DNA from: Halococcus salsus
Lineage (GTDB): Archaea > Halobacteriota > Halobacteria > Halobacteriales > Halococcaceae
DNA: 64,000 nt
Direction: 5' to 3'
NCBI RefSeq assembly: GCF_009900715.1
Contig: NZ_JAAAJC010000003.1
Coordinates: forward strand, 1-64,000
The notes beneath the pieces are model-generated. The model was given only the letters and a program-made list of their open reading frames with translations, was not told where the DNA came from and made no database searches. The position numbers and the translations under genes are program-made. The stretch's first letter is position 1. Every line of letters begins with the position of its first letter. This document shows positions 10,872 to 48,464 of this stretch, piece after piece.

Positions 10872-12101
10872 TTAGCCACCGTAGATCGGGAAGAGACTGA
10901 AGAGAACGTACGAGGCGGCCGCCGACAGGGAGGGGGTGAGGATCCAGAGCATCACGACCCGGCCCGTCGCCGACGGGTCGAAGAGCTCCTGGGAGGTGAA
11001 GTCCGTGGGGTCCTCGTCGCCGATCCGCGGGACGTCGGGCTCCGGGACGTCACCGCCGTCGGGGGTACCGTCGGCGTCGATCGCTTCGGGCGAGTCGGCG
11101 GCGAGCGCGCCGGTGGTGAGGGTCGCGCTCTCCTCACCGCGGTAGGCCGCCGACGCCGCGTCCGCGATGGTGGTCGTTCGGGTGGCCCGACCCCAGCCGA
11201 GGCCGACGATACACATCGTGGCGCTCACGGCCAGGCTCGCCGGGATCCCGAGCCGCGAGAGCACGGTGATGATGGTGGCGCTCACGCTCGCGACGATCAG
11301 CGAGGCCAGGAGGGGGAGGTCGGTGAGGTCGTTGCCAATGGTGTCGAGGGTCCGTCGGGCGATCGTGAACGCGCCGAGACCGATCGCGGCGGCCGCGAGC
11401 AGCACCCCTTGGTCGGCCGTGACCGAGCCACCACCGACGAGGGGGGCGACCGCGTTGGCGACGTTCGACGCGCCCGCGGAGAACGCCATGTAACAGCTGA
11501 TCGCGAGCACGACGGCGCTCCAGAAGACTTCCTTCGGGGTCGTTCCCGGGGCGGGTCGCGGGACGGGAACCGGGCCGGTCCGGTCGATCGTCAGGAGGTC
11601 GCTGTCGGACTGGTCGAGCGCGAACCACGCGTCGAGGTAGGGGTAGAGGTAGCGGCCGATCACCGCACACACCCAGAAGGCGACCACGGGGGCGACGAGC
11701 CACCACGAGACTATCCCGCCCATCACGCCCCAATCGAGGGTGTGACTCGCGAGGCCGAGCCCCGCGATCGCGCCGACCGCCGTCATCGAGGTCGAGGCGG
11801 GCACGCCGAAGAGGTTCGAGATGAGGAGCGCGAGGCCGACGAAGAACAGCACCGCGACGCTCGCCCCGAGGGTGAACTGGCTCGACGGGACGATATCGCC
11901 ACCCATCGTCTTCACGACCTCCCGACCGTAGGTCCAGCCACCGATCAGCGCGAAGAGAGTGAACAGCGCCGCCGCACCGTTCTTCGAGACCAGCCGGCTC
12001 CCCACCGCCGGCCCGAACGCGACGCCGGTCGAGGAGCCACCGATGTTGAAACCGACGAAGACCGCGACGCCGACCCCAACGAGAAGGAGTATCGAAAGCA
12101 C
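10872..12101 (-). CDS. PiT-family inorganic phosphate transporter
   Basis: 409-aa integral membrane permease. The two PiT signature repeats are visible: near the N-terminus FVGFNIGGSSTGVAFGPAVG and in the middle MAFSAGASNVANAVAPLVGG, each of the GxNDxxNxxAP type in modified form. Between and after them lie about ten TM segments. A central cytosolic loop and a late acidic loop (around residues 330-380) separate the halves. Start is GTG at 12101, directly before the first TM; the longer open frame upstream is not conserved-looking. A TATA-like TTCGTATAAG lies just before the GTG, implying a very short leader. Function: proton- or sodium-coupled phosphate uptake. Confidence 0.85.
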   Translation of the reverse strand: MLSILLLVGVGVAVFVGFNIGGSSTGVAFGPAVGSRLVSKNGAAALFTLFALIGGWTYGREVVKTMGGDIVPSSQFTLGASVAVLFFVGLALLISNLFGVPASTSMTAVGAIAGLGLASHTLDWGVMGGIVSWWLVAPVVAFWVCAVIGRYLYPYLDAWFALDQSDSDLLTIDRTGPVPVPRPAPGTTPKEVFWSAVVLAISCYMAFSAGASNVANAVAPLVGGGSVTADQGVLLAAAAIGLGAFTIARRTLDTIGNDLTDLPLLASLIVASVSATIITVLSRLGIPASLAVSATMCIVGLGWGRATRTTTIADAASAAYRGEESATLTTGALAADSPEAIDADGTPDGGDVPEPDVPRIGDEDPTDFTSQELFDPSATGRVVMLWILTPSLSAAASYVLFSLFPIYGG

Positions 12102-28676: not shown

Positions 28677-28748
28677 GGGCTCATAGATCAGTGGTAGATC
28701 GTTCCCTTGGCAGGGGAAAGGCCCCGGGTTCAAATCCCGGTGAGTCCA
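28677..28748 (+). tRNA. tRNA-Ala (GGC)
   Basis: 72-nt cloverleaf. The acceptor GGGCTCA pairs with TGAGTCC (one G-U), D arm GATC...GATC, anticodon arm TTCCC-TTGGCAG-GGGAA with anticodon GGC, and T arm CCGGG-TTCAAAT-CCCGG. Discriminator A at 28748; CCA is not encoded. Immediately downstream lies an AT-rich region and a foreign-looking nuclease gene. Confidence 0.93.
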
Positions 28749-28964
28749 CTCCTGTTGCGCTCGGAGAATAATCGGGAGAAAGCGGGGGCTCTTCGCAACG
28801 CCGTTCGCCGAGAAACGAGCGAGTTGACTCTATTTTGCGACATCGCTTTTCGCCGCTGATTTGTGGTGATGGCGAAATCACAGTTTCATTGCTCTGTAAT
28901 ATGCCGGTATACGGATCCATATGACTAAGATTGATGTAGTATCGGTAAGTCGAAACAGGGTAGA

Positions 28965-30125
28965 ATGAATCGAGAGGCGGTTCGTGACTATATCCAGCAG
29001 TCCGAGTCTATCTTTGAGGCCTCTCCGCAAATGGATGAGGCAAACACGAAAGCAGCGGTGCTCCGTGATTTTCTCGATTTGCTTGACTGGCAGATACCAA
29101 CGAATACACAACTAGAGTATCCAGTTGAGGCGTTCGGACAAACCTACAAAGTGGACTATGCACTTCTTCTGGAGGGAACGCCATTCGCATTCGTCGAGGC
29201 CAAAGGCGCAGATACCGCTCTCACTACGAAACATGCAGAACAGCTCAAGTCATACATGACAAATAAAAATGTTAACTATGGCATTCTCACGAACGGGAAA
29301 CAGTACCGTCTCTTTCAACGGCGTTTAGATTCGGACAATGTGAGCGTGGAGATGATCGGCGATGTAGCGCTGCAGGATCTCGAAAAGAGGTTTGCGTCTT
29401 TGAACGCGTACACGGAAAGTGCGATAGAATCCGGACAATCAAAGAAGATCCTCAACCGAATAAACGAGCTACGTGAAGCCAAAACGATTCTTCAGAGAGA
29501 GAAGGACGAGATCTCGACCGAGTTAACGAATCTCCTAACGGAACGAACTGCGGATACGATCTCTTCACTCGCGGAACCACAGTTCAAGCAGACGATCGAT
29601 AAGCTAGTTGATGAGATAGAAAGCGAAATCAATTCGGATAGCACGAAGACGGAATCTCGGCTTCAAGATGACGAAGAGACAACTATTGAGCCACAGAAGA
29701 ACCACGTCGCAGGGGCCATTGCACGAGCGGAAATTGACGGGAACGGCGATGCGAGGGTCGCCGTGTTCCCAACTCAGAAGTCCGGTCTGGTGTTTCTAGT
29801 AGAAAACAACGCTTGGGGATTCGTCAAAATCGGGAGTGAATTCGACTATGTGGCAATGTATGTTACCAGTGGCGAGAGCGAAGTGCGATATTTCGCCAGA
29901 GTTAGGGATATAGTCGCACCGGACGAGGCCGATTTAGTACGTCCGGCAGAGGAGTATGTCGACAGAGCGAAGATAGGTGAAGGAAAGAAGGTGGTGAGAT
30001 TCGAGCCGGGTAGTCTCTACGAACTAGAGGACCCGGTTCCATACAAGACGAAATATCCGCAGTCACTGCAGTACACGACACTTAATGCTCTTCGGAATGC
30101 GGACACGACGGACGACATGCTGTAG
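28965..30125 (+). CDS. Solitary HsdR_N-type PD-(D/E)xK nuclease-like protein
   Basis: 386-aa protein. The first 110 residues match the type I restriction HsdR N-terminal fold: VDYALLLEGTPFAFVEAKGA supplies D64 and E78-x-K80 of a PD-(D/E)xK site, and QLKSYMTNKNVNYGILTNG follows as in HsdR_N proteins. A coiled coil spans about residues 160-195, and an uncharacterised C-terminal beta-rich domain (residues 250-386) follows. No helicase, HsdM or HsdS is nearby. DNA is markedly AT-rich and lysine-rich against its neighbours and lies between two tRNA genes, indicating transfer. Function may be defence or a nuclease of a decayed element; catalysis is inferred. Confidence 0.75.
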   Translation: MNREAVRDYIQQSESIFEASPQMDEANTKAAVLRDFLDLLDWQIPTNTQLEYPVEAFGQTYKVDYALLLEGTPFAFVEAKGADTALTTKHAEQLKSYMTNKNVNYGILTNGKQYRLFQRRLDSDNVSVEMIGDVALQDLEKRFASLNAYTESAIESGQSKKILNRINELREAKTILQREKDEISTELTNLLTERTADTISSLAEPQFKQTIDKLVDEIESEINSDSTKTESRLQDDEETTIEPQKNHVAGAIARAEIDGNGDARVAVFPTQKSGLVFLVENNAWGFVKIGSEFDYVAMYVTSGESEVRYFARVRDIVAPDEADLVRPAEEYVDRAKIGEGKKVVRFEPGSLYELEDPVPYKTKYPQSLQYTTLNALRNADTTDDML

Positions 30126-30201
30126 GTTCGCTCTAATGACCTACCGCTGTAACAACTAAAAGAGCAATTCTACGTCTAACTTGTTTCGGCCGCAGGGAAA
30201 A

Positions 30202-34855: not shown

Positions 34856-34907
34856 CTGTCGGCTGGAAATCGACTAAAGAGGTGGATGGGCCCTGTCGGA
34901 TTCGAAC
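34856..34907. repeat. Left attachment repeat (att), with displaced tRNA-Met 3' end
   Basis: 52 bp matching 41354-41405 at 51 positions. It begins CTGTCGG and ends GATTCGAAC in the tRNA T loop; the tRNA-derived part is 34887-34907. About 30 bp beyond the tRNA end are also duplicated. The heptamer CTGTCGG occurs twice within each copy. Confidence 0.9.
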
Positions 34908-35000: not shown

Positions 35001-36014
35001 ATGGTAGAACTCGAACCAATAACTCCGTCAGAAGCAAAGGACCTGTACCTCGCACAGAGGGAAGGAGAAGTATCGGAAGAAACGTTACAATCCCATCATT
35101 ACAGGCTGAAGTCGTTCGTGTCATGGCTTGATGACATGGACGTTCGGAACATGAACAGTCTCACCTCTCGTCACATCCACAAGTTCCGGCTCTTTCGGAA
35201 GGAGGAGAAGGATATCAACAAAGTGACGGTGAGAACCCAACTCTCGACAATTCGAGTGTTCGTCAAATTCCTCGAATCGATCGATGCCGTGGAGCAGGGA
35301 TTATCCGAGAAGATCCTCGTTCCGAAAATGGAGGGAAACGAGAATGTCCGTGATAGGCTCCTCTCCTCCGAGCAGGCCGACAACCTCCTCGAATATCTCC
35401 GCCGGTACGAATATGCGAGCAGGACTCATGCTATGCTCGAAGTATTGTGGTCCACTGGTTGCAGGATGGGCGGGCTACACTCCTTAGACCTCGGTGACTT
35501 TAACCGAGAGGAACGCTCGCTCGCCTTCCGTCATAGACCCAGCAAGGGCACTCGCTTGAAGAATAAGCATGCTGGCGAGAGGCTGGTCGCTCTCCCGAAC
35601 GATGTGGCGGATGTGCTGTCAGACTACATCGAAGTCAATCGGAACGAGGTCGAAGACGATCATGGGCGGAGTCCTTTGTTCACGACCTCTGGAAACAGAA
35701 TGGGTAAGTCTCAGATTAGGTCGCTGATCTACTCTGCTACAAGGCCCTGTCAGTACGGCGAGGAATGTCCTCATAGCAGGGACCCTGATGAGTGCGAGGC
35801 GAACTCGTACAAGGATGCCAGCAAATGTCCGTCGAGTGTATCGCCACACGATATTAGGCGAGGTGGACTGACCCACCTCTTGAAAGAGGGAATGCCCAAA
35901 GAGGTCGTTTCAGACAGGGCGAACGTCGAGGAAGGAGTACTCGACAAACACTACAATAAGATGACAGAACAAGAGAAGATGGAACAGAGGAGAGATCATC
36001 TAGACAACCTGTAA
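35001..36014 (+). CDS. int: Tyrosine recombinase/integrase (SNJ2-like family)
   Basis: 337-aa site-specific recombinase. Residues 1-110 form a SAM-like core-binding domain (SEETLQSHHYRLKSFVSWL). The catalytic domain carries Arg155 (STGCRMGGLHSL), His283-x-x-Arg286 (SPHDIRRGG) and the nucleophile Tyr318 (LDKHYNKM). Four cysteines (250, 256, 265, 276) between the first Arg and the HxxR box could bind zinc; such a cluster with KCPSSVSPH is typical of haloarchaeal integrases related to that of temperate virus SNJ2, which also uses tRNA-Met. It would catalyse recombination between the 52-bp repeats. ATG 35001; codon usage more AT-rich than chromosomal genes. Confidence 0.92.
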   Translation: MVELEPITPSEAKDLYLAQREGEVSEETLQSHHYRLKSFVSWLDDMDVRNMNSLTSRHIHKFRLFRKEEKDINKVTVRTQLSTIRVFVKFLESIDAVEQGLSEKILVPKMEGNENVRDRLLSSEQADNLLEYLRRYEYASRTHAMLEVLWSTGCRMGGLHSLDLGDFNREERSLAFRHRPSKGTRLKNKHAGERLVALPNDVADVLSDYIEVNRNEVEDDHGRSPLFTTSGNRMGKSQIRSLIYSATRPCQYGEECPHSRDPDECEANSYKDASKCPSSVSPHDIRRGGLTHLLKEGMPKEVVSDRANVEEGVLDKHYNKMTEQEKMEQRRDHLDNL

Positions 36015-36103: not shown

Positions 36104-36478
36104 CTAATCTGAGCGATTCTGAGACGATTGCTCAATCCAGACAGGGCTAGTTCCGTGAGTCGTCTTGAGGTACACACTACTTAAATAGTCTGTCGTGGCC
36201 TCATCCGAGGTATCACTATTCAGGGGAGGGGCCACGCTTCTAGCATAGGCAAGCGCCCGCTCACTTTTCCAATTCAGTGGCCCGATCTCCATCGAGGGGC
36301 CGAACGTCACCGGATGGATGCAGGTAGCGGGATACTCTTGTTCGATCTCGGAATAGCGAGCGGCCAGATATTGAATCACTGCATCCTCCCCTACATCGAG
36401 GCCGAACACACCTTCGCCAATGAGGTAGGCTCGCGCTAATTCGAGCCCCGTCTCTCCGTCGATTTGTAGCTCACTCAT
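36104..36478 (-). CDS. Element operon protein 5, paralogue of the two upstream proteins
   Basis: 124-aa protein. Its first 45 residues (LQIDGETGLELARAYLIGEG ... GEDAVIQYLAARYSE) align with the N-terminal domain of the two preceding gene products, sharing ET, the hydrophobic spacing, ED.VI and A..Y. The C-terminal 75 residues are unrelated and contain two tryptophans and TTDYLSSVYLK. Last gene of a coupled operon: its ATG (36478) overlaps the upstream stop as ATGA. No known family recognised. Confidence 0.75.
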   Translation of the reverse strand: MSELQIDGETGLELARAYLIGEGVFGLDVGEDAVIQYLAARYSEIEQEYPATCIHPVTFGPSMEIGPLNWKSERALAYARSVAPPLNSDTSDEATTDYLSSVYLKTTHGTSPVWIEQSSQNRSD

Positions 36479-36717
36479 CTTCCCGGTCGGCGCGACCTTT
36501 CTTCTTTGAAGCGTCGGCGAAGGCGTCTCTGTTCCGAGTTGACGGCTCCACTAAGCTCCTCCGAGGAGTTGGAATCCCCACCCTCATCCAAGAGGTAGGC
36601 CGACGCTATATGCCGAATCACCTCATCCTCGCTAGAGCGGTGGGAGAGGGTGTTATCTCCTTGAATACACTCTCGGACAAGCTCATCCGTCTCGGATGAA
36701 AGCTCGAATTGACTCAA
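36475..36717 (-). CDS. Element operon protein 4, short paralogue
   Basis: 80-aa protein. QFELSSETDELVRECIQGDN followed by HRSSEDEVIRHIASAYL matches the N-terminal domain of the next upstream protein (17 of 44 residues identical without gaps). The rest holds SSEELS and a very basic helix SEQRRLRRRFKEERSRR that matches the end of the same upstream protein. It looks like that protein with its middle removed. The basic tail could bind nucleic acid. ATGA overlaps on both sides. Confidence 0.78.
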   Translation of the reverse strand: MSQFELSSETDELVRECIQGDNTLSHRSSEDEVIRHIASAYLLDEGGDSNSSEELSGAVNSEQRRLRRRFKEERSRRPGR

Positions 36718-37118
36718 TCTAGGATCTCCTTTTTCAATCGCCGTTGCTCCTTCTCCACAGGCGATAGATTCTCGTCCGATAATTCGGCCTCGTCCGAGGG
36801 TCCATCGAGGTCTAGCTGTTCACGTAATTCCGCCCGCTTCGCCTGAGCCTCGGACATTCCCTCGGTATCAGGGCTGGATTCCTCCTTGGCCGAGGGCAGT
36901 CCCATCGACTCGCGCAAGTCGTGCTGGTAGCTCTCTACTTCCGAGAGTTCTTCGCTGCCGCCCTCTTTGGATTCTTGGGCCTCAAGATACTCTGCGGCGA
37001 GGAAACGGACGATTCTCTCCTCCGATGATCGACTCGACAGATGGTTCTTGTATCGGGGCACCTCATTCAGCGCCTCGACAACAGGCGGGGAAAGCTCGAA
37101 GAATTTACTCATCTTCAA
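36714..37118 (-). CDS. Element operon protein 3, FELS-domain protein with triple C-terminal repeat
   Basis: 134-aa very acidic protein. Residues 5-48 (FFELSPPVVEALNEV ... SRSSEERIVRFLAAEYL) define the domain shared by three consecutive genes here. The C-terminal half has three copies of a short helical motif: LSEVESYQHDLRESMGL, MSEAQAKRAELREQLDL and LSPVEKEQRRLKKEILD. ATG 37118 (or 37112) overlaps the upstream gene. A role in DNA binding or in assembling a complex with its paralogues is possible but not shown. Confidence 0.78.
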   Translation of the reverse strand: MKMSKFFELSPPVVEALNEVPRYKNHLSSRSSEERIVRFLAAEYLEAQESKEGGSEELSEVESYQHDLRESMGLPSAKEESSPDTEGMSEAQAKRAELREQLDLDGPSDEAELSDENLSPVEKEQRRLKKEILD

Positions 37119-37566
37119 ACGCCTCCTCTAGCAGAGGGCGAATTATCCCATGACGCATAGCCTTGCTCGTATGGCTCGTATTGTAATCAGTCTCCATCGA
37201 TGCTAGCTCTGACTCGGAGATTGATGCATCGACAATACTCCGCTCCTTGGGCGGAACCGTGACTCTCATACGATGAATACGGCGAGCGCCATCCGGTGTC
37301 CTGAGGCTCACAGCAGGCTCTGTCGGCTCAATCGTGGAAGCGTCAAGGTTCCCCTGAATCGCTAATCGGAGCAGCTGGTGTAGGCCGTCGTTATGCCCCA
37401 ATGCTTTGTCCGTCAGGCGAGGTTTCTGGTGAGTATCTACTCCGAACCCCTCCACGACTTGTAGGAGTTGCTCGTACTCCTCTGTCGGAAGCTCGAAGCC
37501 GATTCCCTCAGTGGTGCGATGGTCAATTACCCCTACATTCAGGGCTTCCGTGATCGCCTCATTCAT
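37105..37566 (-). CDS. Element operon protein 2, unknown function
   Basis: 153-aa acidic protein. GIGFELPTEEYEQLLQVVE followed by LHQLLRLAIQGNL resembles, more distantly, the FELS-type domain of the following three proteins. The C-terminal half contains ARRIHRMRVTVPPKERSIVD and ends in an acidic helix. No recognised family. The start overlaps the stop of the first operon gene (ATGA), and its own end overlaps the next gene by 14 bp. Confidence 0.75.
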   Translation of the reverse strand: MNEAITEALNVGVIDHRTTEGIGFELPTEEYEQLLQVVEGFGVDTHQKPRLTDKALGHNDGLHQLLRLAIQGNLDASTIEPTEPAVSLRTPDGARRIHRMRVTVPPKERSIVDASISESELASMETDYNTSHTSKAMRHGIIRPLLEEAFEDE

Positions 37567-37703
37567 CGGCGAGACTCCTCGGCCAATAGCCGCGCCATGG
37601 CCCCAATCGTAATTCTCCGCCCCTCACCGAAGCGTCGTTCTCGCGCTTCTTCGAGCGCCTGATGCTCGTCTTCAGTCAGCTTCACTTGCTTCATAGTTGA
37701 CAT
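37563..37703 (-). CDS. Element operon protein 1, 46-aa putative ribbon-helix-helix-like regulator
   Basis: ATG 37703 is preceded 7 bp upstream by GGAGG, which decides the start; the frame could extend to 37775 but would then translate a tRNA-like sequence. The product opens MSTMKQVKLTEDEHQALEEA and continues with a short helix-turn-helix-sized segment. A beta-strand-like KQVKL followed by two helices resembles a truncated CopG/RHH DNA-binding protein. It may regulate the operon it heads. Its stop overlaps the next ATG. Confidence 0.6.
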   Translation of the reverse strand: MSTMKQVKLTEDEHQALEEARERRFGEGRRITIGAMARLLAEESRR

Positions 37704-37722
37704 TCCTAGTCCTCCGTGAACA

Positions 37723-37747
37723 GGAGGGGGCTGGATTCGAACCAGCC
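37723..37747 (-). other. tRNA 3'-end-like sequence inside the operon leader
   Basis: Read on the minus strand, GCTGG-TTCGAAT-CCAGC is a perfect T arm, followed by CCCCTCC like an acceptor 3' strand. The upstream bases do not complete a cloverleaf: no GGAGGGG is found within 100 bp. It is distinct from the tRNA-Met att sequence. It could be a relic of another tRNA integration or a folded leader element. Confidence 0.55.
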
Positions 37748-37836
37748 TCCCTTGCCGGATTTGCACCGACTTCATGAACGAATGTTACATCGAATCGACG
37801 GAACACGCTCGAAGAAGCTGTGACACTTCCATCATT

Positions 37837-37860
37837 GGAGATAGTAGAGTGACTATCTCC
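37837..37860 (-). promoter_or_regulatory. 9-bp hairpin at predicted 5' end of element operon transcript
   Basis: GGAGATAGT pairs perfectly with ACTATCTCC around a 6-nt loop. It begins about 25-30 bp downstream of the promoter-like box at 37877-37889, so the transcript would start with or near this hairpin. This implies a structured leader of about 155 nt before the first gene. Confidence 0.55.
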
Positions 37861-37876: not shown

Positions 37877-37889
37877 GCAGCTACTTAAA
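37877..37889 (-). promoter_or_regulatory. Promoter-like box TTTAAGTAGCTGC for the leftward operon
   Basis: Minus-strand TTTAAGTA resembles the haloarchaeal TATA element. The identical 13-mer recurs on the plus strand at 39004-39016, where no gene follows. Spacing to the leader hairpin is about 17-25 bp, as expected for a transcription start. Confidence 0.55.
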
Positions 37890-39003: not shown

Positions 39004-39016
39004 TTTAAGTAGCTGC
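39004..39016 (+). promoter_or_regulatory. Promoter-like box TTTAAGTAGCTGC, plus-strand copy
   Basis: Identical over 13 bases to the box at 37877-37889 on the other strand. Followed about 20-30 bp later by a segment able to fold into hairpins rather than by a reading frame. Confidence 0.5.
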
Positions 39017-39032
39017 AACCCTTACGTTAGGT

Positions 39033-39130
39033 TATGCTGAGGTCTGGCTTGCCCTCGGCAAAGTTCGTACCAACTTCGTTCAAGCTTACGGAAGGGTGCT
39101 AGGCACGCCCTGAACACATCGTTTTCATAC
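39033..39130 (+). ncRNA. Candidate structured RNA 1 of the integrated element
   Basis: Starts about 25 bp after the TTTAAGTA box. Predicted stems: CTGAGG with CCTCGG enclosing GCTTGCC; AAGTT-CGTACC-AACTT (39061-39076); GGGTGC-TAG-GCAC-CCC (about 39094-39112), followed by a T-run that could terminate transcription. It shares the loop octamer GCTTGCCC with the next structured segment. No coding frame. Identity unknown. Confidence 0.4.
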
Positions 39131-39168
39131 CCACAGATTAACCGGCAATCTTTACGATCATCGAAACC

Positions 39169-39179
39169 TTTAAGTATCT
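39169..39179 (+). promoter_or_regulatory. Second TTTAAGTA promoter-like box
   Basis: TTTAAGTATCT lies 165 bp after the first plus-strand box. AAGTATCT (39172-39179) is also inverted at 39199-39206, so the site may be a small operator as well as a TATA element. Followed by candidate RNA 2. Confidence 0.45.
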
Positions 39180-39197
39180 ATAGCACCTACTAGTAAA

Positions 39198-39345
39198 CAG
39201 ATACTTCGGTTCGCTGGAGCTTGCCCCTCCCCGAAGTTGGTACGGACTAAGGAACCTCTCAGGGCGATAGTCTGGTATACGGCAAAGCAAGCCTCTCCGT
39301 TGGAAAAGGGTTGTATCCACTGGGTGCAATCACACTGAACCCCGC
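39198..39345 (+). ncRNA. Candidate structured RNA 2 of the integrated element
   Basis: A strong hairpin at 39203-39237 pairs ACTTCGG with CCGAAGT and, inside it, GGAG with CTCC around CTTGCCC. Downstream GGACTA and TAGTCT can pair, and GCAAGCCTCTCC offers an alternative partner for GGAGCTTGC. CGAAGTTGGTAC (39232-39243) is exactly complementary to 39067-39078 in candidate RNA 1. No coding frame is convincing. Could be a regulatory RNA pair. Confidence 0.4.
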
Positions 39346-39828
39346 ATAGGTCGTTGGATGCGTGTGGAGTAAGTTACTGTATCGGAGAAGTTCGAGGAAC
39401 TGACCTCACTAATGGACGTTTTTGCAGTTGCGGTAATAGTCCTTTAGTGAGAGTTGTTTTCCTGTTGTAGTTCTCTACACATGTGCCGAATGGCTAAAGA
39501 TTCGGTACGGAACGTTAACATCAGGAACGCTAGTCTGAGTTTTTACAGACTCAGGATAGTTGTTCTCCTCGAAGGATTGACCGTCGCGGTCTATCTATCG
39601 AGAGATAGGCTGGCGGCCCCTCCTCCGAGAAGATAGACAGGCTGTTCATCGTTCGAGGGCTGATCCACTCCCTTAGACGAGTCAACCCCTCAGACTAGCG
39701 TCCCATGATGTGAACGTCCCGTACCTGAGGCTATGGCCCTCGGCAGGAGGAGCAGCCCGACGTTCTCGAATGGATCTGTATACAGAGGGTATACTTCCCC
39801 ATCGATGCAAGATCGAGAGGTCCGCCGT
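39346..39828. other. Non-coding segment with two further hairpins
   Basis: No credible gene. Two perfect 6-bp hairpins: AGTCTG/CAGACT (39532-39551) and CTATCT-ATCGAG-AGATAG (39591-39608). They lie downstream of the orphan gene at 39829-40212, whose transcript runs into this region, so they might also act as terminators. Confidence 0.45.
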
Positions 39829-40212
39829 CTATCGGGAGAGTCTGTAGAACGACCACTCTTGATCCACATCTCCGTCAAGAGCATCAGCGAATTGGTCATA
39901 TTCTTCCTCATTAACGGAGATCTGTTCGGCAAAGTCAACATCAAACTCTCGCTTATCGACTTGACCCTCATCGACAAGCATCTCTGTAAGGATCTCGATT
40001 TTAGCAGTCGTTAGGATGACTCCTTCCTTCTCCTCTTGCGCCCCTGCTGCATTCAGATCCGAAGGCATGGACACATCAGGGAATAGCGTTGATCGGAGGT
40101 CGGATATAGCTACGATTCTATCAGGGTTGGCTCTGAAAATTCCAAGAATGTCTTGTTTCAATGATTGTTGCGGCTCCCCTTCTTCCCAGTCTAGCCCTTG
40201 TGACCAAGACAT
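39829..40212 (-). CDS. Element-encoded acidic orphan protein
   Basis: 127-aa protein, acidic, no TM. The N-terminal half (SLKQDILGIFRANPDRIVAI, then SDLRSTLFPDV) has the pattern of a winged-helix domain, with a helix, a short strand-like IVAISDL and a further helix. The C-terminal part ends WSFYRLSR. Only 170 bp separate it from the other orphan gene on the same strand. Function unknown; a transcription regulator is possible. Confidence 0.65.
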   Translation of the reverse strand: MSWSQGLDWEEGEPQQSLKQDILGIFRANPDRIVAISDLRSTLFPDVSMPSDLNAAGAQEEKEGVILTTAKIEILTEMLVDEGQVDKREFDVDFAEQISVNEEEYDQFADALDGDVDQEWSFYRLSR

Positions 40213-40382: not shown

Positions 40383-41057
40383 CTACCAGTGTGGCTGAAG
40401 TTCATCGGAAACAAAGGCTGCCAAGTCATCGGATCCAGCTGCAGGTTCCATAATTCGAACGAATCCACTCGCCGAGACCTCCATTTTCGTCTGGCGGCCA
40501 TTGTGCTGAAACTCCAGACCAAGCTGGTTCTTGTTGGATTGCTGGAGAACGGTCCCCATATTGGGGTCATTTGGAAGATCAGTCCCATAGACAACCCCCT
40601 TGTCAGCATTCCCACCGAGGTTGCTGAAACCATACTTCCATGGTAGCGCATTCGGTCGAGTTTGCGCATATGCATCGAGGTCTATAGTTGGTCGAGTTAC
40701 GCTGATGCTATTCGTACTACCAAGTATGTCAAAGAAGAACTTACCTGAAGTGTCACCGATTATGATGAACTCATTCGGACACAGTATGAAATCAGTTACA
40801 CTCGCTATTTTTTCCCATGTGTTTGTCGATTGGATGCTACCGTTCTGAACCGTAGGTTTCGAGACATTATTAGCAACTTCTGCGAGTGCTCTACCAGTTT
40901 GGACCGTGATTTGGTTTCCATTCGGTGTGGTTACGGATGATGCGGGCCCAACCTCAACGCACTCATTGAGAGTCATTCCATGATTTTGGTGGCTAGATGT
41001 GTATGACTGCATACTAGGAAAGTTGCCATTACCAGTCCCAATGATACCTCGCTTCAT
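40383..41057 (-). CDS. Element-encoded orphan protein, beta-rich
   Basis: 224-aa protein from ATG 41057. The sequence is rich in N, S, T, G and Q, with few charges in the middle, unlike typical acidic halobacterial enzymes. It has runs suggesting beta structure (NQITVQTGRALAEV; DFILCPNEFIIIGDTSGKFFF; SISVTRPTIDLDAYAQ) and a C-terminal VRIMEPAAGSDDLAAFVSDE. Such composition is common among virion and surface proteins, but no family was recognised. It is the gene nearest the right att site, with about 300 bp of non-coding DNA (41058-41353) before the att repeat. Confidence 0.65.
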   Translation of the reverse strand: MKRGIIGTGNGNFPSMQSYTSSHQNHGMTLNECVEVGPASSVTTPNGNQITVQTGRALAEVANNVSKPTVQNGSIQSTNTWEKIASVTDFILCPNEFIIIGDTSGKFFFDILGSTNSISVTRPTIDLDAYAQTRPNALPWKYGFSNLGGNADKGVVYGTDLPNDPNMGTVLQQSNKNQLGLEFQHNGRQTKMEVSASGFVRIMEPAAGSDDLAAFVSDELQPHW

Positions 41058-41353: not shown

Positions 41354-41405
41354 CTGTCGGCTGGGAATCGACTAAAGAGGTGGATGGGCCCTGTCGGATT
41401 CGAAC
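41354..41405. repeat. Right attachment repeat (att), overlapping the intact tRNA-Met 3' end
   Basis: Partner of 34856-34907, differing at one base (GGCTGGGAATCG against GGCTGGAAATCG). Bases 41385-41405 are the 3' end of the functional tRNA-Met gene, so the element carried a copy that keeps the tRNA complete after integration. Confidence 0.9.
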
Positions 41406-41457
41406 CAACGACCACTCGGTTATGAGCCGAGCGCTCTCACCACTGAGCTAAGGGCCC
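41385..41457 (-). tRNA. tRNA-Met (CAT)
   Basis: 73-nt cloverleaf: acceptor GGGCCCT/AGGGCCC, D arm GCTC...GAGC, anticodon arm CTCGG-CTCATAA-CCGAG, T arm GTTGG-TTCGAAT-CCGAC, discriminator A. Probably elongator Met; a CAT anticodon could also be an Ile tRNA with modified C34. It is the integration target of the 6.5-kb element. Confidence 0.9.
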
Positions 41458-46941: not shown

Positions 46942-47016
46942 TTCACTCACTTCGTTCGTTCACGACCTGGCGTGCCCTGCGCTCGCTTCGCTCGCGCAGG
47001 ACTCCGCCAGGACGTT
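46929..47016. repeat. Direct repeat of the tRNA-Arg 3' end (possible att pair)
   Basis: CTCCGCCAGGACGTT occurs at 46929-46943 (the tRNA T stem, acceptor and beyond) and again at 47002-47016. Such duplications arise by integration or local duplication at tRNA genes. The second copy sits about 75 bp before the FokI-like nuclease gene. No third copy was seen on the far side of that gene. Confidence 0.6.
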
Positions 47017-47090
47017 TTCGCGACGCAAACTGATGAGCGAAGCCGCTGGATCTGGATTGCACTTTTGTTCATCGGCCGTGAGTATTCGAC

Positions 47091-48464
47091 ATGGTCCTCT
47101 CTGACGAGCGTCAAATAACGCGTGTTTGGGACGCATTTGCTGACACTGGTTTCGTATACGTGAGTGAAAGTGGAGATCGGCATAACCTTAGCGAGGGTCG
47201 TAAAGAGCGTGAAGAACGCCTCCCAATACGGCAAAAGTTACTTCAAGCATTTCTCGATGGCGAGACAGACATCATGGAATTCAAAAGGAAGATGGCAAGT
47301 GAAGTTGGGAGGCACAAATTGTGGGGGTTCAGCGGATTCAGCGGTCAAATGTTCTTCAATACGCTTGTTTCGTCCGCAGATCTCGACGACGCAGACCTCG
47401 ATGAATTGCTTAGAGAGGTATTCACTGCGCCCAACGACAAGGCATCAGCAGCCAGTAAAATCCGCAAACTGGAACGCTATGTGAAGAGACTCAGATCACA
47501 GATAGATGATCTGAACTCTGCACCAAGTGCTGGATTCATCCCGTACTTTGTCTCGTACTTTTGGCAATTACAGGACCCAAACAAATACCAGATATATTAT
47601 AAATCAATTCGCCGTGCTTTCTCTGACCTTGCCATTTGGGACCCTAGTGATAACCTCGCCGAGGATTATGTGGAATTTTGGGATCTGAACGAGGAAATCC
47701 GAGAGTTAATCGAGTCGTACAGCAATGAGGAAGTTCATCTTTGGACTATCGAACGGATGTGTCTTTTTTGGCTCAATAGAGATGAAGTCAGCGATGGCGC
47801 AACTGATGAAGATGGTGGGAACTCCTCGTCAGGTGCCACAGAGATAGTAGAAGCGAATTCATTTCCAGACAGCTATATCCCTCCAATCGTATCAATTCTC
47901 CCGGATCTCGCACAGAATACTGAGGAAATGAAGAATATTGGCAGCGAGACCGGACGAGCTGTTGAAACGCTATTTGAAGACCGACTCGCGAAGTGTCTTC
48001 GAATGCTTGGATACACGGTGGAGGAACGTGGACAGGGAAGTGGGCGCAATCCGGACGGTATTGCGAGAGCTCGTCGGCACAACTATGCGATCATTTACGA
48101 TGCAAAGGTACGTCAAGACGGATATCGATTCGCAACTAATGATGAGCGGCAGTTTCGAGATTATATCGATGCGGAAGTTGGGCGTCTCCAGAGCCAAGGC
48201 TTTCGGAATGTCTATTTTACCGTCTTTTCTAGCTTCTACGATGCAGATCGTCCAGATGCAGTCCGGAGGCTGAAAATTGAAACAGAGATTCAGGAAGTGC
48301 GTTTGATAGAAACCAATGCGCTTCTGGACATCTTAGAGACACGACTAAGGGAGCCGATGTTCACACTTGGACCAACTAATGCTGATGGGCCTGGAATACA
48401 GGATCTTTTCGCGGAAAGTGGCGTTCTAACAGCAGTAGAAGTCCAAGAGCAATACGGCCGGTAA
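47091..48464 (+). CDS. FokI-like PD-(D/E)xK nuclease with MrcB_N-like N-terminal domain
   Basis: 457-aa AT-rich, foreign-looking gene. Residues 45-230 resemble the N-terminal region of McrB-type restriction proteins: KLWGFSGFSGQMFFN, FVSYFWQLQDPNKYQIYY and a helical remainder. After an acidic linker, residues 285-415 resemble the FokI cleavage domain: RNPDGIARARRHNYAIIYDA then KVRQDGYRFATND. This supplies D322, D337 and K339, with a Q-x-R-D-Y-I segment as in FokI. A modification-sensing region joined to a nuclease suggests defence against foreign DNA. No methyltransferase or ATPase gene adjoins. Lies after tRNA-Arg and its duplicated 3' end. Confidence 0.75.
   Translation: MVLSDERQITRVWDAFADTGFVYVSESGDRHNLSEGRKEREERLPIRQKLLQAFLDGETDIMEFKRKMASEVGRHKLWGFSGFSGQMFFNTLVSSADLDDADLDELLREVFTAPNDKASAASKIRKLERYVKRLRSQIDDLNSAPSAGFIPYFVSYFWQLQDPNKYQIYYKSIRRAFSDLAIWDPSDNLAEDYVEFWDLNEEIRELIESYSNEEVHLWTIERMCLFWLNRDEVSDGATDEDGGNSSSGATEIVEANSFPDSYIPPIVSILPDLAQNTEEMKNIGSETGRAVETLFEDRLAKCLRMLGYTVEERGQGSGRNPDGIARARRHNYAIIYDAKVRQDGYRFATNDERQFRDYIDAEVGRLQSQGFRNVYFTVFSSFYDADRPDAVRRLKIETEIQEVRLIETNALLDILETRLREPMFTLGPTNADGPGIQDLFAESGVLTAVEVQEQYGR

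Follow-up and report, generated by a model that had tools for sequence, protein, structure and literature searches.

Tandem orphan paralogues with an unnamed N-terminal domain in a small tRNA-Met-integrated element of Halococcus salsus

The window analyzed here, a 64,000-nucleotide stretch of Halococcus salsus DNA, is haloarchaeal chromosome with a G+C content of about 0.70 that drops to about 0.50 between roughly 34.9 and 41.4 kb. The low-GC stretch is flanked by two 52-bp direct repeats, 98% identical, which represent the att copies at its left end (34856..34907, plus strand) and right end (41354..41405, plus strand), the latter overlapping the 3' end of a tRNA-Met gene (41385..41457, minus strand; found by ARAGORN and by Rfam RF00005). 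Just inside the left repeat, 93 bp from the att copy, lies a gene encoding a tyrosine recombinase/integrase (35001..36014, plus strand; PF00589, E 3e-12; PF02899, E 4e-9). The stretch is a 6.5 kb element integrated in the tRNA-Met gene and is laid out as archaeal elements integrated at tRNA genes typically are; integrases of archaea are known to favor such genes (PMC8371274). The element also carries an orphan gene encoding 127 aa with no family match (39829..40212, minus strand) and a gene of the Halorubrum virus BJ1 ORF23 family (phrog_18169; 40383..41057, minus strand). The start of the latter was moved from 41162, the position of the mechanical ORF call, which is too early because the starts of its relatives (MKAGVIG.. 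or MKSGIIG..) correspond to an internal methionine (MKRGIIG) here. Elsewhere in the window, a second low-GC island (28700 to 30200) lies between tRNA-Ala (28677) and tRNA-Phe (30202) and holds a 386-aa gene with weak PADLOC matches to mad2 and type IIG restriction enzyme profiles. G+C falls again to about 0.45 to 0.50 at 47000 to 48000, which suggests another insertion on the right-hand side.

Inside the element, five overlapping minus-strand genes, here called gR, g0, g1, g2, and g3, form one operon. It is headed by gR (37563..37703), encoding a basic protein of 46 aa (pI 8.4 vs a host-gene mean of 4.8), followed by g0 (37105..37566), an orphan encoding 153 aa that is coupled upstream of g1. 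The last three genes of this coupled operon are g1 (36714..37112, 132 aa, ATG start), g2 (36475..36717, 80 aa, TTG start), and g3 (36104..36478, 124 aa), all three of which an earlier note on this DNA had placed correctly as ORFs. That note began g1 at TTG 37118, whereas the most likely start is the ATG at 37112, within the overlap with g0. Read from the sequence, the junctions are ATGA for gR/g0, ATGAGTAA for g0/g1, TTGA for g1/g2, and ATGA for g2/g3; the ATGA coupling described earlier for the three genes is thus genuine at g2/g3 and becomes TTGA at g1/g2, since g2 starts with TTG. A coding-type codon-position G+C pattern was found in all five genes. The g1 and g3 products are acidic overall and the N-terminal domains neutral to acidic, though acidity is common to most host proteins. 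The C-terminal tail of g2 is basic, with a charge of +7 over its last 20 residues; among 39 host genes just one attains +6. The fifth coupled gene (gR), the integrated element, and the tail repeat of g1 described below had all been overlooked.

The products of g1, g2, and g3 begin with a colinear domain of about 46 residues, hereafter the head. In Smith-Waterman comparisons restricted to the first 50 residues, with 3000 shuffles as background and p taken from the fitted tail, the pairs scored p ~2e-8 (g1-g2), ~2.5e-6 (g2-g3), and ~4e-4 (g1-g3). BLASTP aligned g1 with g2 (E 9e-10) and returned no alignment between g2 and g3, and g1 used alone as a query against the whole genome matched g2 at E 8e-5. 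Leave-one-out profiles searched against the 993 frames of the window retrieved g1 at 5e-5 and g2 at 1e-3, and the g1+g2 profile placed g3 at E 0.055, equal to one unrelated frame. Judged by sequence, the paralogy of g1 and g2 is certain, and g3 is a probable third member on account of its adjacency and of a colinear match at the same N-terminal position; its membership falls short of certainty because the g1+g2 profile yields only that marginal value.

These results bear out part of the earlier description, which had proposed tandem paralogues with an unnamed domain and a fainter version of it in g0. The proposal stands for g1 and g2 and is probable for g3, and mutual retrieval by HMM was likewise observed for g1 and g2 and was marginal for g3. 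The 17 identities reported between g1 and g2 were recovered, spread over 39 ungapped positions rather than 44, and the motif said to be shared is less uniform than described, in that RSSE is missing from g3 and g1 has IVR, not VIR. The "FELP version" in g0 was not upheld: against g1, g2, and g3 its shuffle-test p values were 0.3, 0.008, and 0.77, and g0 is not supported as a fourth member of the domain family.

Behind the head, g1 carries three tail repeats with a 30-residue period (residues 54 to 83, 84 to 113, and 114 to 130; 36723..36953, minus strand), beginning at residues 54 (EELSEVESYQHDLRESM...), 84 (EGMSEAQAKRAELREQL...), and 114 (ENLSPVEKEQRRLKKEI). When the tail was compared with itself, the mean BLOSUM62 score was 0.96 for a shift of 30 residues and 0.82 for one of 60, with only 0.06 at the next best offset; in 5000 shuffles, no offset between 10 and 45 produced a score as high as that at 30. 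In the g1 model each repeat contains one predicted helix (56 to 70, 86 to 101, and 118 to 131), at low to middling confidence. A single similar copy, with an EELS...QRRL helix motif, follows the head of g2 (EELSGAVNSEQRRLRRRF; in a comparison with the last repeat of g1, 5 of 2000 shuffles scored as well), while the C-terminal part of g3 is unrelated to the repeat of g1 and g2. The family is a head joined to three, one, and zero tail copies of an amphipathic-helix repeat in g1, g2, and g3, respectively.

An AlphaFold model of g1, built on an alignment to g2 and g3 only (three sequences in all), gave the head a pLDDT of 81 to 88, with a strand at residues 4 to 6, a helix at 9 to 16, a second strand at 28 to 30, and a helix at 31 to 49. 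The head is predicted to be a small beta-alpha-beta-alpha domain with a long final helix. Searches with this model by Foldseek (PDB and BFVD) and VIA-align returned no meaningful fold match; MDM2 was set aside as noise (Z 2.1), as were meaningless matches of the head profile to PCNA and SNF8 among solved structures. Modeled alone, g0 reached a pLDDT of 36 and was unusable. No family match for the domain was found in Pfam, NCBIfam, or PADLOC, and PHROGs yielded insignificant matches only. Hetero-oligomers or nucleic-acid binding, raised in the earlier note as common among coupled paralogues, may apply here; in the sequence libraries and fold searches, DNA or RNA binding drew no support from any profile or fold match.

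The succession of a strand (FELS), a helix, a loop, and a helix with VIR..A..YL resembles the order of an RHH domain, and the operon could on this ground encode small DNA-binding repressors, acting as homo- and heterodimers, whose heads are extremely diverged RHH domains. This was examined with a local haloarchaeal RHH profile, HTH and MazE control profiles, a PF01402 genome search, and hhalign. An RHH profile does align colinearly over 40 columns and outscores two control families, and both halves of g0 came near the top of the shuffles on the haloarchaeal profile (3/500 and 5/500 scoring as well); with 18 comparisons in all, this is no more than a hint. Against this, g1, g2, and g3 lie at shuffle level on the same profile (124, 42, and 466 of 500 shuffles scoring as well, respectively), hhalign gave P = 0.08, and Pfam RHH_1 found 15 places in the genome at E up to 1, none of them at this locus. 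The second strand before the last helix in the g1 model, itself a prediction, is absent from RHH domains. With no hmmscan Pfam match and profile scores at shuffle level, an RHH identity of g1 to g3 is not supported at the level of profiles, and we regard the repressor reading as unlikely.

To judge from the collections searched, the domain is unnamed and without relatives. Queries with g1 and g0 against 391 Halobacteria genomes returned no convincing relative, and a 46-position head profile run on the same genomes matched the genome of origin only. The weak foreign matches inspected, a set that includes matches just under E 0.01 but not the g0 matches below that value at L009 to L012 and L014, overlie unrelated genes or other frames and were rejected as chance overlaps. 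IMG/VR was empty for g1, g2, g3, g0, and the head profile; g1, g2, and g0 were not found in phages; and plasmids, queried with g0 only, gave one insignificant match. Exact peptide patterns, an insensitive approach, located no g1 on genome contigs and missed the integrase as well, despite its many relatives. These relatives are numerous in Halobacteria, at 47 to 60% identity (best 50 to 60%), and the nine loci with the closest integrases hold other genes beside the integrase and no operon of the g1 to g3 type. Relatives of the BJ1-ORF23-type gene occur in 43 of 361 haloarchaeal genomes, in several loci at 2 to 5 kb from the same type of integrase; the gene is a possible marker of small integrative elements. 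Twenty loci picked by this gene contained no match to g0 to g3 or gR. In two integrase-bearing loci that also carry the BJ1-ORF23-type gene, small winged-helix-type paralogues of another family stand in tandem, at 10964 to 11605 of L152 (E 2e-19) and, ATGA-coupled, at 2580 to 3214 of L153 (E 3e-11), which shows that small regulators do undergo tandem duplication in loci of this kind. The head family looks like an orphan enlarged by local duplication.

The genes could also be duplicates decaying neutrally in an orphan operon of recent origin, with no selected common function: the family was found in one genome only, divergence between its copies is strong, and no sister element that was read has kept the operon. 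The state of the genes argues otherwise, as the five frames are intact, tightly overlapping, and of coding-type base composition, the head is preserved although the copies have diverged far, and the 30-residue period of the tail has stayed exact. Neutral decay appears rather unlikely.

Upstream of gR lies the promoter-like sequence TTTAAGTAGCTGC (37877..37889, minus strand), which resembles an archaeal TATA region. A second exact copy at 39004..39016 (plus strand) faces an apparently non-coding, structured stretch; the chance expectation is 0.15 matches with up to 2 mismatches allowed, and the 42 nt around the two copies are 74% alike. From the usual TATA-to-start distance, the operon transcript would start at about 37860, where there is a perfect 9-bp palindrome (GGAGATAGT-N6-ACTATCTCC). 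The putative 5' leader of about 155 nt (37704..37860, minus strand) is structured by prediction (fold z -4.4; -5.7 in a 160-nt scan) and includes a tRNA T-arm-like hairpin (GGCTGGTTCGAATCCAGCC) and a predicted hairpin able to cover the GGAGG just before gR. Either side might base-pair with CCUCC, an arrangement like that of a translational switch. On the opposite strand, 39300..39730 is a strongly structured stretch without a convincing ORF and a candidate non-coding RNA (z -6.45 over 431 nt, 0/100 shuffles; z -6.1 for the sub-stretch 39515 to 39715). These single z-scores are strong and fall short of proof, because about 1% of host windows (4/518) in a control scan reached z <= -4.4. In Rfam, the gathering score was reached by the tRNA-Met gene only, leaving the leader and 39300 to 39730 without a family, and searches of phages, plasmids, and 0.88 Mb of haloarchaeal DNA with the structured stretches gave only short DNA matches at chance level.

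Taken together, we tentatively favor the interpretation that g1, g2, and probably g3 are lineage-specific duplicates encoding oligomeric head-plus-tail adaptors or regulators of the element. They would have arisen by local duplication inside the small tRNA-Met-integrated element, for which the winged-helix-type pairs of L152 and L153 offer a precedent by analogy. Start/stop overlaps would couple translation, such that the three proteins would be made together, and heads of one common fold may then associate as homo- or hetero-oligomers. The tail repeats, present in different numbers, may bind one common partner with graded valency, and the set would act as a small element-encoded adaptor or regulator. 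Its target would probably be the element's own expression, given the duplicated promoter-like sequence and a basic character of gR and the g2 tail that is unusual in this host. Oligomerization, partner binding, and the regulatory role are what we infer from the architecture of the proteins and their setting. Weighing against this reading are the negative profile and fold searches for nucleic-acid binding, the neutral to acidic heads and overall acidity of g1 and g3 in a host whose proteins are mostly acidic, and the marginal profile match of g3.

The setting would also suit counter-defense cargo, in which the small proteins would be early products inhibiting host defense and gR or g0 an associated regulator. 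This reading fits small orphan genes that share a mobile-element operon headed by the possible regulators gR and g0, and an anti-defense function is often predicted for small early genes lying beside a regulator in archaeal viruses (PMC11065993). PADLOC, which lists defense systems, gave no match here, and no known family emerged from the other libraries. To our knowledge, an architecture of repeat tails is atypical of known inhibitors, and we consider a counter-defense role improbable. More doubtful still is an antitoxin-like nature, with a folded N-terminal domain, a flexible helical tail, and possibly a toxin-like C-terminal part in g3: the head-plus-flexible-tail design and the coupled operon accord with it, yet a head common to three successive genes is unlike a toxin-antitoxin pair, and no toxin or antitoxin family was matched. 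Least probable of all, and by our estimate very improbable, is a protein-RNA control module that joins g1 to g3 with a large structured non-coding RNA (about 39034 to 39730), made from the exact copy of the operon's promoter-like sequence, and with the structured operon leader, although such RNA-and-adaptor control would, if true, be of a new kind for an archaeal mobile element.

The head-and-repeat design suggests graded valency, and, if the link of the family to the duplicated promoter-like sequence and the structured stretch is real, the locus would offer a testable control system in a type of element whose regulation is largely unexplored. With neither relatives nor a function, the family alone is of modest interest; it nonetheless shows clearly how an orphan protein family has grown through tandem duplication in a small archaeal element.

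The element resembles the small tRNA-targeting tyrosine-integrase elements of haloarchaea, with which it has in common an integrase, small orphan genes, and a BJ1-ORF23-type gene. As in other small haloarchaeal integrative elements, its att repeat derives from the 3' part of the tRNA gene (PMC8371274). It differs from these sister elements in its operon, which is absent from the nine closest-integrase loci and the twenty BJ1-ORF23-type loci. The winged-helix-type paralogues of L152 and L153 are comparable as adjacent small paralogues in integrase-bearing loci; unlike g1 to g3, to which they are unrelated in sequence, they belong mostly to recognizable winged-helix families. The haloarchaeal RHH regulator CdrS (PMC8406309) is similar in its small size and superficial strand-helix-helix pattern, whereas g1 to g3 are distinguished from RHH proteins of this type by the lack of RHH profile support, an extra predicted strand, and the presence of repeat tails. 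Orphan genes are common in archaeal mobile elements (PMC4158269), and archaeal "dark matter islands" are clusters of short, fast-evolving genes with a narrow taxonomic range that frequently lie within integrated mobile elements (Makarova 2014, PMC4158269). The element described here also clusters such orphan genes, and, unlike in those islands, at least two and probably three of its orphans are paralogues with a common N-terminal domain.
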